Below the pieces are notes generated by a model. That model made no database searches. It was given only the letters and a program-made list of their open reading frames with translations, and was not told where the DNA came from. Of a DNA stretch of 64,000 nucleotides, positions 48,553 to 63,321 are shown piece by piece. This stretch comes from an uncultured Bryobacteraceae bacterium (GTDB taxonomy: Bacteria > Acidobacteriota > Terriglobia > Bryobacterales > Bryobacteraceae): the NCBI GenBank assembly GCA_938027685.1, contig CALJAM010000011.1:248001-312000 (forward strand). The letters are read 5' to 3'. The translations under genes were made by a program, and so were the position numbers. Each line of letters begins with the position of its first letter. The stretch's first letter is position 1.

Positions 48553-48659
48553 GCCCGGGGCGCTTCGTCGACGGGCGAAGATCGGGCGAAGCTGCGGCAG
48601 GGCTTCGCGCAAGCAGGGATCGCAGGGAGGCTCTCCGTCTGTGATTGAATCAGATTGGA

Positions 48660-49508
48660 ATGCGGACGCGACAGTTCACGTTGGCAGTTCTGGCATGTGC
48701 GTTCTTGTCAGTTTCAAGGGTTTGCGCAAATCGCGAAACGACGCTGCTTCCAATCGTCGACGATGCCGTAGCTCATCACCTCGGCGAGCAGCAGGCAACC
48801 AAGGTCTCTGCGCAGCCTGGGAACGACGGCGACGGCGAGGCCTTCATCCGCCCCGTCATTCGCCCGCAACCTCAGCCTTCGGCCGAGCAAGGCTTCCAGT
48901 GGGAGCCCGCGCTGCGGCAGGCCGGCTTCTTCCTCGGGATCATGCACGCTTGGCGCCTTGCGACCGAGCCGGGCACCCGGGCCGAGCTGCGCGGGCCGTT
49001 CCTCCGCGATTACTTCTCGTCCGTGAAGGGCCTTCACGGTTGGGGTGACGGTGATCCATTCATCGTCAACTACGTGGGTCATCCGTTCCAGGGGGCCGTC
49101 CACGGTTATATCCAGATCCACAACGATCCCCGCTCTTACAGGCTGGAATTTGGCAACAACCGCTCTTACTGGGGTAGTCGCTTGCGTGCCATGGCCTTTG
49201 CAGCGGTGGCGAGTCTCCAGTTCGAACTGGGGCCGGTCAGCGAGGCTTCCATCGGCAACGTAGGCAAGGAGCGAATCGGGGCCGGGGCGGTCGACCTGGT
49301 TGTGACGCCGCTGGGCGGCTTCGGCGTGATGTTGGCTGAGGACGCGCTCGACCGCTACGTTGTCCGGCGGATCGAGCGGTGGACGAGCCACCCGGTCCTG
49401 CGCGCAGTGGTCCGCGGCGCGCTGAATCCGAACCGCGCGTTCGCCAACCTCATGCGACGACGCGTGCTCTGGCACCGCGACACGCGTCCCGGGGTGCTGC
49501 ATCCCTGA
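48660..49508 (+). CDS. Exported or outer-membrane-associated protein of unknown function
   Basis: Protein of 282 residues. A signal peptide (RTRQFTLAVLACAFLSVSRVCA) precedes a disordered Pro/Gln-rich stretch to about residue 80. The rest has several weakly hydrophobic segments and striking conserved-looking text: VNYVGHPFQGAVHGYIQI, GSRLRAMAFAAVASLQFELG and VVTPLGGFGVMLAEDALDRY. This is reminiscent of DUF3943-type proteins (a HP-GxxY segment before membrane-like repeats), but I cannot confirm that. TTG at 48645 is an alternative start. It lies about 100 bases downstream of pepA. Confidence 0.6.
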   Translation: MRTRQFTLAVLACAFLSVSRVCANRETTLLPIVDDAVAHHLGEQQATKVSAQPGNDGDGEAFIRPVIRPQPQPSAEQGFQWEPALRQAGFFLGIMHAWRLATEPGTRAELRGPFLRDYFSSVKGLHGWGDGDPFIVNYVGHPFQGAVHGYIQIHNDPRSYRLEFGNNRSYWGSRLRAMAFAAVASLQFELGPVSEASIGNVGKERIGAGAVDLVVTPLGGFGVMLAEDALDRYVVRRIERWTSHPVLRAVVRGALNPNRAFANLMRRRVLWHRDTRPGVLHP

Positions 49509-49654
49509 CGACCCCCGAGCCGCCGGCGATCGCGGCCGCAGCTCGCGCGCTCTCCTCTAAACCGGCGCTCGGCTCGCGGGAAACCTAGAGCCGCGTCTCG
49601 GAAAGAAGAGCGGCCCAACTCACGCTCGCGATCCAACGGCACGCAACCCGACGC

Positions 49655-52600
49655 TTAGAAGTGCAAGCGCAGGCTGTACTGTATCTGTCGTCCGAACGTG
49701 TAATCCCGCGGGCGCGTGGTCTTCCCGAACAGCGAGTCGGTCACCGACGTGCTGGGGTTGGCCATGGTCAGATTGTTGATCACGTTGTAAGCTTCGACCC
49801 GCAATTCCAGCCGCAGCCGTTCGGTGACGCTGAAGGACTTCGAGACGGTGCCGTCCCAGGAAAAGTAACCCGGACCGGTGAGGCCCTCGAAGGTGCGGGG
49901 ATTGGTTCGCGGCGTGTACGGCTGGGCGCGTGCGAAAACCTCGGTCTTGAACCAGCGACCGGGCGTGGGCTTGTCCACGCGGGGATCTTCGCCGTTCCAT
50001 TCCATCTGCCCGAAGGCCAGCAGATCCCCGGACTGCCGGCTCACGATGGAGCTCACCTGCCATCCGCCCAGAATGGCTTCCAGCGCGGGATGCAACTGAT
50101 TCAACCAGGGCCGGCCCTTGCCAATAGGTAACTCGAACACGCCCGCTCCCGCGAAACGGTGACGCGGCCGGGTACCCGTGAGGAAGGTGAAGCGGCCCGC
50201 ATACTCGTCGTCGCTGTTGAAAAAGCCTTCGTTTTTTTCGCGATTGTAGTTGTACGCGAGCAACAGATTGTAGCCGCGCGCAAAGGGCCGCTGGGCCCGG
50301 ATTTGCAAAGCGTGGTAGCGATTCCTCGGGCCTGGCGTGTTCTGTTGCGTCAGTGTGCCGTAATGGGGATACGGCTTCAGAAGGTCGGCTTTGGTGACCT
50401 CAGCGCGGTTGCGCAACTGGCCTGGGAACTTGTCGGGCGTCAGGTACATGTAGAACGGGTTCGGGATGCGCCGGCTCAGCTCCGCCTTATAGGTATAACT
50501 GAGAGTTGGATCCATCAGGTTCGGTCTTTTGTCGTAAGCGAGGTTGTGTCCCAGATTGACGAAGTAAGTGGCATCCACGACAATCTGATCAGCCACGTCC
50601 CTCTGGATCGAGAAATTCATCCTGTCGTTCGTGGCTGCCTTCACATCCTGATAGCTCCAACGCGTATCGCCTCCAATGCCGGTGTAACGCCCGAGACTCT
50701 TGCCGACGGGCATGATCAAAGGATTGGTAGGCGGAAAGGGATCGACGAAGCGGGCAGTGGGGATGCCTTCCAGCGCGGGCGTCGTGTAAGTGTCGGCATT
50801 GAAGCCCGGCATATAGAGACTGCCGAGCAAGGAGTCGCCTACCCCGCCCAGAGGCATGAAGATCGCGGGAATGACGAAGCGGGCCCAACCGGCGCGCAGT
50901 GCAGTCTTGTCGTTGGCTCGCACGGCGATCCCGAGCCGCGGCAGGAAGACGGCTTTCGGGCTGTTCCACATCTGTCGGTCGTGCTTTTCGGCGAAGTGCT
51001 AAGCGCCGGTGAACCGGTACGGCACCTTCATCAGAGCGGCCACGTCAGCAGGTATTCTGGGAGGATTGGCGACCATTTCAGGGATAGGGTCGTCGAGGTC
51101 GAGTTAGCGGGACACGCGATCCTCGGGATCCCACGGCGCCGTCTCGTATTCCCAACGCAGGCCGAGGTTCAAGGTTACGCGGCGCGTCCACTTGAAATCG
51201 TCCTGAATGAAGGCGCCCCAATAGCGGAAGCGGGCCTTCTGCATGGGGATGTACCGTGCGTAGGAGCTGCCGTCCAGAGCGCCGAGCAGGAAGGTGGCCC
51301 AGCCGTCTCCGACGTTGGCGGTGTTGGGCGCGATAAAGGTGTCCGCGGTCAGCGAACAGTAGAAACAGAAGCGCATGGGGTCGGGCCGCGCCGAACGGCC
51401 GCCGTGCCCGCGCATTTCGAGACCTTCCTTGATGTAATGCGAGCCCAGGTAGTGCGACAGCCGGCTGTGGACGCTGTAGCTCCTGGGTCTCTGAAACCAG
51501 TAATTCCCGCGAGCGAACTGACCGCCCTGGTCGATGTCGAAGCGCGGCGGCAGGATCTGCGGCACCTCCTTCATGTAAGGTTCGAACCACTTGTTCGGCC
51601 ACAGCTTCGCCAGCCCTTCGACGTTAGTAACGAAGGGTCCGCCGTCGTATTGATCGATGATTGAGTTATAGGCTCCGCGCAGGTTAAGCACCGTGGTGGC
51701 CGAACGCGTATACACCGCGTCGCCCGCCACATTCAGCCCGTGACGGATGCTGCCGGCATCATAAGGCCACCACTGAGAGTTGTTTCCGGAGAGATTATCC
51801 TCGGAAACCACGGTGTGGAACTGACTGTAACGGCCGAAGACCTTCGAGCGGTCGTTGACATGCCAATCCGCGCGGTCTGAAAGGTTCCAGTAGTCGTAAA
51901 AGCGGTTCGATTCGACCTGGAAGTTGTTCCGGCCGCTCGGGTCGGCGCCGGGATTGTTGGGGCGCCAGACCTGCTCCATGACCTTGACCGACAGCGGATC
52001 CATGCGGGCCTTGGGGATGATGTTGCCGGGGAAGGGCTGCCGGGTGGCCACGTTACGGGCAGGGTCGAATTTCGTAGTCCACGGGTCGTAAATCGGGCGC
52101 AGAGTCCCGCGAGCGGTAAGCGTGCGCGAGAAATCACCGTTGCGCTCGAGGTCGGTAGGCATCGTGCGGGTGGAGTTCCAGGGCTGGACGGTCTTCCAGT
52201 CCTCGAACGAAAAGAAATTGAACAGGCGGTTCTTGACGATGGGGTGACCCAAAGTGCCGCCGAATACGTTGTGCCGGATGCGGTTGCGGCTACGCGGGAT
52301 GACGGTGCGGTCGGCGACGGCATTCAGGCGAGGCGTGCGGCCCAAATACATCAGGGTGCCGCGGTACTCGTTTGTGCCGGACTTCATCGCCATCGTGATA
52401 ATGCCTCCGGCACTGTGGCCGAATTCGGCATCCACGCTGTTCTGCTGGATGGTGAACTCGGCCACCGCGTCCATGTTCGGCGTGTAAGCGGTTTTGGGAC
52501 CGGTCTCCACGGGCGTGCCGTCGATCAGGATGTCGTTGCGGCGGTTGGTGCCGCCCCCGGTCTCCAAGTCTTGGGCGGCCCAATGATGGTAGGGCGCCTG

Positions 52601-53113
52601 TTCTCCCCCGGAGGTATTCACGACCGCCGGGTCCAGCGCCGCCAATTTGAAGGGATTGCGCGTGATCAACGGGAGTTCACGCACCATCTTGTTGTCTATG
52701 GTGAGTTCGCGGTTGGCCGTGTTGAACTGGAGCGCGGCCGGGGCTTCGGTAAGCTCCACCGTCTGGCTTGCCATGCCGACCTGCAATTCCACATCGAGCG
52801 TGATGTCGCCGCGGGTTTGCACCAGGATGTTCTTTTGGATGAACTTGCGAAAACCGGGCGCCTCGACGGTCAGGGTGTAAGTTCCCGGATCGACAAAGTC
52901 GAAAACGTAGGTACCCGTAGGGCCGGTCGTGCGAACGGTTTCGACGCCCTGACTTACATTGAGAAGCGTCACCTTGGCGCCGACCACGACGGCCTGCGTG
53001 GCGTCGCTCACCCGACCCTGCACCCGCGCGCGGTAATCCTGCGCGCTCGCGGTAAAGACCAAGGTAAGCAAAGCGCACAGCACGAATGCCTTGCGGCGCA
53101 TTTCCCTCGCCAT
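49655..53113 (-). pseudogene. Oar-like TonB-dependent receptor interrupted by two in-frame stop codons
   Basis: Full-length receptor reading of 1152 codons from ATG 53113 (GGGGGG ribosome site) to the stop at 49655. The domains are all present: signal peptide, carboxypeptidase-regulatory-like domain, plug and large barrel ending in YSLRLHF. Two nonsense codons lie in the same frame: TAA at 51106-51104 (codon 670, after DPEDRVSR) and TAG at 51001-50999 (codon 705, between YRFTGA and HFAEKHDRQ). The text between and after them stays in frame and receptor-like. From related receptors the lost residues look like Tyr/Phe and Trp. A recent pseudogene is most likely; readthrough or consensus error are alternatives. 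Confidence 0.85.
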
Positions 53114-53298
53114 ATTGCCCCCCTTGACTTGGATCAGGCGATACCAGCAAAATACCACCACCGACTCGGCGACAACGCAACGGTGTTTGCGAGTCCCAGT
53201 CCCGACGCCCGGAGGAAGCAGGACGTTAAGGGGGAAGCGCGCCGCGTCTTCCAAGGGGATGCCGGGCGCCCCCGTGGGCGGAGCGGTAGCGCTGCCTG

Positions 53299-53931
53299 TT
53301 ATTCCTTCAGCGCGGCGAGAACCTTTTGGGTGAGCTCCTCGATCATCTCGGGCAGGGCAGCGTCGAGCGCGGGAGCAATCGCCGAGGAGATCTCACGGGT
53401 GATCTGCTCGACCAAGCCCGGCAAGGCTGCGTCCAGAGCCAGCGTGACCGCTGCGCGCACCCGCTCGGGATCGGGCGCCGGCGGTCGCGCGGCGATAGGC
53501 TCAACCGCGGGGTGCACAGCGGGCGGCTCCGCTTCGGCGGGAGGTCGCTCTGCCCGCTCGCCGCGAGCCGCCTCGATCAGCGGGCGTACGGTTTCCAGAA
53601 CTACCGAGGCTTCCAGCGGCTTACGCAACAGACCGTCGGCGCCGACGCGTCGCAGTTCGTCTTCATCCACCGGGTCCAGCGGACCGGCCAATAGGACGAC
53701 GCGGGCGTGGCGATGCCGCGGATGTTTCTTCACATGCTCGCAGAGCTCGTAGCCGGACCTGACGGGAAGGAAGACGTCCGCAAGCACCAGGTCAGGATCC
53801 GCGTCCGCCAGCCGGATCACCGCCGTTTCGCCATCGGTCACCGTGACGACCTCGTAACCCTCCTCGATCAGGATGCGCTCGCCCATACGCTGGGCGTGGG
53901 GGCTGTCATCGGCCAGCAGGACACGACTCAT
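53299..53931 (-). CDS. Receiver protein with proline-rich linker and duplicated helical tail
   Basis: Response-regulator-like protein of 210 residues. Receiver domain 1-120 with acidic pair in LLADDSP, phospho-acceptor Asp52 (LVLADVFLPVRSG) and Lys in LLRKPL. A Pro/Ala/Glu linker (about 125-155) leads to two related amphipathic helices, LALDAALPGLVEQITREI and PALDAALPEMIEELTQKV. No DNA-binding domain. Its ATG overlaps the stop of the BamD-like gene by 4 bases, so it is the last gene of an rsmB-rpe-BamD-like unit. Confidence 0.82.
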   Translation of the reverse strand: MSRVLLADDSPHAQRMGERILIEEGYEVVTVTDGETAVIRLADADPDLVLADVFLPVRSGYELCEHVKKHPRHRHARVVLLAGPLDPVDEDELRRVGADGLLRKPLEASVVLETVRPLIEAARGERAERPPAEAEPPAVHPAVEPIAARPPAPDPERVRAAVTLALDAALPGLVEQITREISSAIAPALDAALPEMIEELTQKVLAALKE

Positions 53932-62304: not shown

Positions 62305-63321
62305 CTACATATCAGCCAGTGCGGCCACCAACGCCCCCTTGGCCGTCGCATGCAGCGGATCCGCGGCCAGGCGTACTTCGGAGACCCGAAGCGGAAAGTC
62401 GCTTTCGCGCAAGGCGCGCTCGAAGTGCTCGCGGAAGCCAGGGGCCAGCGCGGTTCCGCCTGCGAGCACCAAGGGCAGCGGACGGTTCAGCCGGGGCAGC
62501 GCCCGTTGTTGCTCGAAGGCCTCGCCCATGGCCTGGATGACGCTGCGGATCAAATCGTCGTAGTAGACGCGCAATGCTTGGCGCAGCTTGGCGGGCAAGC
62601 TCTCCGCCGCATGCCCGTTCAGCGAGAAGTATTGCTCCTTGAGGACGCGCACGCGCGTCGCCACCTCTCCTGCCGCCGCGGCCGCTCTCGAGTCGATGTG
62701 ATCGCCGCCCTTCGGCAGGCTGAAGCTGACCACGGGAACCGAGAGATAGGCCAGACACGCGTTGGTGAGTCCCGCGCCAAGGCTGACCCCGATGCCCGTG
62801 TAATTGGAATCCGCCAGCTCGGCGAAGATCACTGCAAGGCCTTCCTCGAGGCTGCGTACCTCGTAACCAAGTTCGGTCAGCATCTGCGCCAAGGCTGCCT
62901 GATGGAACTTGAATGTTTCGGGGGCGCCCGGGGGAGGCGCTGGGACGCTGTAGCAGAGCTTGGAGCCCGCCTTGGCGTTCGGGCCTCCCAGCAGCTCCAC
63001 GATCGCCCGCACAACGTTGAGGCCGTCGGGTTCCTCCGGGTTCAGCGCGCCCTCCAACATCGGCCGCCGCGTCTCCGCGTGGAGCAGGTCAGCGAAGCGC
63101 TCACTGGCATCGCCGAAAACCAGAATCTGGCCGTCGCTACGGGCATGGGGAATGCGTTCCTTCTCGAGGACGAGGGAGGTCAACTTCGACCAGGGAAGGC
63201 TGAGGAATGCATTCAGTTGCGAATCGAACTGGTAATCATCGCCGCTCCGGCGCGCCAGCACGATGCGGCTGGTGCCCACGTCGAGGCCCAATCTCGTACG
63301 CCCGTCTTCAGTCATCGACAT
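62305..63321 (-). CDS. Actin-like ATPase (MreB/PilM/ParM superfamily), unassigned subfamily
   Basis: Protein of 338 residues of the actin/Hsp70 fold. Phosphate-1 motif GLDVGTSR (12-19), phosphate-2-like GIGVSLGAGLTN (about 175-186), and adenosine motif VLAGGTALAPGF (about 287-298). No membrane segment. MreB would be more strongly conserved; this is a distant member such as those acting in plasmid segregation, pilus assembly or organelle positioning. ATG 63321 directly abuts the stop of the upstream amidase gene, with AGGAG within that gene's end, so the two are translationally coupled. Confidence 0.8.
   Translation of the reverse strand: MSMTEDGRTRLGLDVGTSRIVLARRSGDDYQFDSQLNAFLSLPWSKLTSLVLEKERIPHARSDGQILVFGDASERFADLLHAETRRPMLEGALNPEEPDGLNVVRAIVELLGGPNAKAGSKLCYSVPAPPPGAPETFKFHQAALAQMLTELGYEVRSLEEGLAVIFAELADSNYTGIGVSLGAGLTNACLAYLSVPVVSFSLPKGGDHIDSRAAAAAGEVATRVRVLKEQYFSLNGHAAESLPAKLRQALRVYYDDLIRSVIQAMGEAFEQQRALPRLNRPLPLVLAGGTALAPGFREHFERALRESDFPLRVSEVRLAADPLHATAKGALVAALADM

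Follow-up and report, generated by a model that had tools for sequence, protein, structure and literature searches.

Two in-frame stop codons in an Oar-like receptor gene of a Bryobacteraceae-related bacterium: a probable pseudogene of very recent origin

The window, by which is meant the whole 64,000-nucleotide stretch of DNA that was analysed, forms part of a 3.93 Mb genome of 45 contigs and 96.69% completeness, probably a metagenome-assembled genome. On its minus strand a frame of 1,152 codons and a terminator runs from 53113 to 49655, and, apart from a TAA at codon 670 and a TAG at codon 705, the translation (1,153 codons) is open as far as the normal terminator at codon 1153. With both stops replaced by X, the protein matches the barrel domain PF25183 (OMP_b-brl_4) over residues 243-1145 and positions 2-838 of the 838 in the profile (476 bits, cut-off 30; E 3.7e-142), and carries PF13620 CarboxypepD_reg at residues 31-111 (63.9 bits, cut-off 32.3); an N-terminal carboxypeptidase-regulatory-like domain is typical of Oar-like receptors. 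A sequence-only reading of this DNA had described a complete Oar-like receptor but for the two stops, with coding character kept on both sides of them and in between. Translation and Pfam bear out the first claim, adding the minus strand, which that reading had left out, and the second is upheld by a PF25183 match that spans the read-through protein and by the gap-free alignment to an orthologue at 91% identity. The 5' end is likewise intact, with an ATG at 53113, a G-rich Shine-Dalgarno-like run before it and a signal-peptide-like sequence after it (judged by eye). The long plus-strand frames across the region would be antisense frames of a GC-rich gene. The features of the locus are as follows:

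49655..53113, minus strand: probable receptor pseudogene, PF25183 (OMP_b-brl_4) with N-terminal CarboxypepD_reg and a normal terminator (translation, Pfam, orthologue)
51107..53113, minus strand: N-terminal open part of 669 codons, which takes in a signal-peptide-like start, the CarboxypepD_reg domain and the beginning of the barrel (translation, Pfam; signal peptide by eye)
51104..51106, minus strand: premature TAA, codon 670 (translation, receptor alignment)
50999..51001, minus strand: premature TAG, codon 705 (translation, receptor alignment)
49655..50998, minus strand: C-terminal barrel part of 447 sense codons and the terminator, with an imprint of purifying selection (translation, dN/dS)
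48645..49508, plus strand: convergent neighbour, PF13084/DUF3943 just below cut-off, which also adjoins the receptor in genome G002 and the response regulator in genome G001 (Pfam, genome matches)
53299..53931, minus strand: upstream neighbour, response-regulator receiver protein (Pfam, genome matches)

Elsewhere in the window, at 62308-63321 on the minus strand, a match to PF25216 Volactin (283.6 bits), which we take to be an actin-like family, lies behind a frame with an Amidase_2 match.

Of 61 genomes (the own genome and 60 relatives, with at most 11 candidates scored per genome), at least 40, the own one among them, have a match to the receptor at E 1e-250 or better. Proteins related to its N-terminal part are encoded on seven named contigs, which come from metagenome assemblies of Bryobacteraceae and other Acidobacteriota. 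The closest outside match scored is a PF25183 receptor in G002, a genome of the same genus (contig C259, L013), with 91% protein identity over residues 12-1152; the first 11 codons lie beyond the start of that contig and hence outside the comparison. The sequence-only reading had pointed to the same locus in close relatives as a check, and in the closest of them the disruption is absent: the G002 gene has no premature stop, the alignment gap list holds no indel over the 1,141 shared codons, and the DUF3943-like gene is again its neighbour. The two loci differ in that G002 has its response regulator on a separate contig, next to a gene resembling, by eye, 2-oxoglutarate dehydrogenase E1. In the third genome of the genus, G001, the DUF3943-like and response-regulator matches lie about 160 bases apart on a single contig (L196, G001:C18, about 524-683), with no receptor between them. 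As the receptor stands beside the DUF3943 gene in G002 and is absent from there in G001, its site is variable within the genus, and it is an accessory gene, present in one of two congeneric genomes and missing from the site in the other. Relatives at 73-74% (G020 and G018) sit among other genes.

Both stops were placed in an alignment of 19 receptors, made up of the window gene, 17 of 29 fetched relative loci and one paralogue from the own genome. Codon 670 is a sense codon in all 18 of the others, aromatic in the sister species G002, and codon 705 specifies an aromatic residue in 18 of 18, the identical one in 17. The G002 orthologue is aromatic at both positions, each of its codons being one base from the stop concerned, and neither stop was found in any of the 18. 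The stops are not conserved and, if real, are recent.

The history of selection on the gene can be read from the same orthologue. Between the window and G002 receptors dS is 1.15 and dN 0.060, giving a dN/dS of 0.052 overall, 0.047 before the stops and 0.062 after them. Strong purifying selection acted on the window receptor through nearly all its history since the split from G002, and the stops are therefore recent if real; a dS of 1.15 is near saturation, so that it sets only an upper bound on their age and gives no date. The likeness of the two parts also bears on the idea of a functional split, in which the N-terminal part would be used alone. Its start, its signal-peptide-like sequence and its 669 codons are all intact, as a split would have them, but the selective imprint is alike in both parts, and stops at these places are found in 0 of the 18 other aligned receptors, which leaves a split exceedingly improbable.

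It had also been argued from the sequence that neutral decay should have added indels, an expectation that did not hold up. With the G002 gene as template, nonsense makes up 3.1-3.9% of random substitutions, and at some 3 to 4% a second stop can come early. If the first stop is taken as inactivating, one further stop without an indel implies, at the median, 7 to 20 neutral substitutions, 4 to 12 of them missense, under assumed indel:substitution ratios of 0.2 to 0.05; in so young a case the lack of indels is unsurprising. Changes polarised with the G020 and G018 receptors as outgroups number 59 nonsynonymous to 158 synonymous on the window branch and 49 to 124 on the G002 branch (Fisher p 0.82). 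No overall missense excess was detected on the window branch (estimate -4, 95% range -33 to +22), a range too wide to reveal the 4 to 12 or so extra missense changes expected. Among positions conserved to 90% or more in the other 17 receptors, three (codons 121, 251 and 296) carry a missense change private to the window gene, in addition to the TAG, and none carries one private to the sister gene, which hints weakly at relaxed selection or at errors; with the threshold raised to 95%, each of the two genes shows a single change. Such little detectable relaxation of selection fits a young pseudogene, and also a functional gene or an artefact.

The receptor belongs to a large paralogous family within its own genome. 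Among 624,332 bases in 66 sequences, comprising the stretches around most receptor matches and the window, 73 receptors were judged, of which 66 are intact and seven broken: three by nonsense (the window gene, L050 and L051, the latter two with one in-frame TAG each), three by a change of frame (L124, L148, L167) and one as a remnant that lacks the N-terminal part (L052). The intact genes are the 68 single-frame rows minus two second parts of frame-changed genes (L124, L167). The count omits L006 (a duplicate), the plus strand of L137, L169 10327-13135 and 13 rows at the ends of stretches or contigs, namely 10 genes (L170 and L171 counting as one) together with L130 and L143, which are weak relatives; a few own-genome matches lie outside the sample (e.g. 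C37:36488, C38:43533, C22:194404). Neither G001 nor G002 yields a match to L050 at E 1e-200. Stops occur in four of the 83 receptor matches listed (the window gene, G017, G011 and G024). Receptors with a single in-frame TAG or TAA were also seen in other genera of the family (L055, L056, L057 and G005:C193:10434-12956).

A codon-usage scan for same-frame breaks returned 26 pairs of neighbouring frames, among them the broken receptors L050 and L051; it misses the window gene, whose middle piece is too short, and so is not exhaustive. In Pfam searches of 16 of the 26 pairs, one domain of a non-receptor gene clearly spans a stop: it belongs to a CobN/Mg-chelatase-like gene (L135 5217-7001, minus strand; G000:C5:77216-79000) whose single in-frame TAG falls within it. 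This stop is found neither in the G002 match, which has the same length, nor in the shorter G001 match.

Low-coverage base miscalls can produce internal stops in public assemblies, as one published account indicates (PMC11017572). Under an artefact of base calling, assembly or strain mixing, the stops would be absent from the living population or present in some strains only. In-frame stops in L050, in L051 and in the CobN-like gene of the same genome, the last having matches in G001 and G002 that are open over their length, are consistent with such an origin. Errors would account no less well than decay for the three missense changes that the window gene alone shows at conserved positions. 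Against this, to call all five in-frame stops in 624 kb miscalls implies an error rate of about 2e-4 per base, at which two nonsense errors would fall in one gene of such length about once in 3,000 genes (both hand estimates), whereas real decay clusters hits after the first. Because the assembly holds other in-frame stops, one of them in the CobN-like gene, an artefact is still allowed a small but appreciable probability, and we consider it unlikely.

Alternatively, TAA and TAG might be decoded as amino acids by read-through or recoding, with the receptor still being made. In favour of this, nothing but the stops disrupts the frame, dN/dS is low before and after them, and each is followed by C, a leaky context. 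Distinct in-frame stops among the matches listed number eight TAG, two TAA and no TGA (the TAG at G000:C6 being doubtful), but with an expected TGA share of 13-24% none in ten is unremarkable. Release factor RF1 (TIGR00019) is present above cut-off, and the codons in question serve as ordinary terminators, with 43 TAG and 37 TAA beside 177 TGA at the ends of 257 closed coding segments, counts that take in a few premature stops. No cta or tta anticodon occurs in the 35 tRNA loci of an assembly in which some tRNAs, tRNA-Tyr among them, were not found, and the best match to PylS reaches 27.1 bits against a cut-off of 178.15. The stops are common to none of the 18 other aligned receptors, and two serial read-through events would be very inefficient. 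Suppression, and pyrrolysine for the TAG, had both been raised from the sequence and gain no support here; decoding of the two stops is highly improbable.

A variant of this idea starts from the residues that the stops replace. Of the stops that were assigned to a residue, six lie at aromatic positions, the two of the window gene by alignment and those of L050, L055, L056 and L057 by eye, and UAG and UAA might be tolerated in aromatic-rich barrel receptors if aromatic tRNAs read through them usefully, so that the receptors would be conditionally made. The coincidence arises in part because the barrel is rich in aromatic residues, the stop of the CobN-like gene is presumably not at an aromatic place in the CobN family, and we give the variant very little credence. 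A tRNA-Trp lies near a contig start (G000:C40:369-440, L084) and tRNA-Tyr was not found among the 35 tRNA loci, so a break in the assembly may have cost a tRNA cluster.

Phase-like silencing by point mutation was another option of the sequence-only reading; it was considered here as a reversible state, with gene conversion as a second route to it, and it is true that two codons alone part the receptor from an open frame. Two independent stops do not make a switch, however. No direct or inverted repeats were found in 50800-51300 and no tandem repeats in 49500-53300, and the own genome holds no close second copy, its longest other DNA matches being 64-65% identical over about 1.1 and 0.55 kb and the rest shorter than 130 bases; without a close second copy there is no donor for gene conversion. 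With repeats near the stops and a donor copy both absent, phase variation and gene conversion were rejected, and silencing of this kind is very improbable.

The most probable explanation, which we hold with good confidence, is that the window receptor is a very recent pseudogene of an Oar-like PF25183 receptor in a Bryobacteraceae-related bacterium (Acidobacteriota). A very young pseudogene was the first option of the sequence-only reading, and the intact G002 orthologue, the low dN/dS and the broken paralogues speak for it. One point mutation would have cut the frame short in mid-barrel and abolished function; with selection gone, a second nonsense substitution would have arisen ahead of any indel. 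Translation would yield a fragment of 669 residues with part of the barrel, presumably degraded, and a C-terminal piece, having no signal peptide, would not get to the membrane. Loss of the receptor would be tolerated because the gene is accessory and the genome holds dozens of paralogues, several of them also broken.

Taken alone, the window receptor is an ordinary case of little importance. It illustrates how receptors in a large set of paralogues arise and die, with 7 of 73 genes judged being broken, by stops and frame changes alike, and it carries a caution: in probable metagenome assemblies, recoding should not be called from internal stops that lack read support. Set beside recent bacterial pseudogenes, the window gene shows the same pattern, in which nonsense mutations strike an accessory member of a family with many paralogues and leave the frame otherwise intact; it differs in having two stops and no indel, which is within expectation for a very young case.
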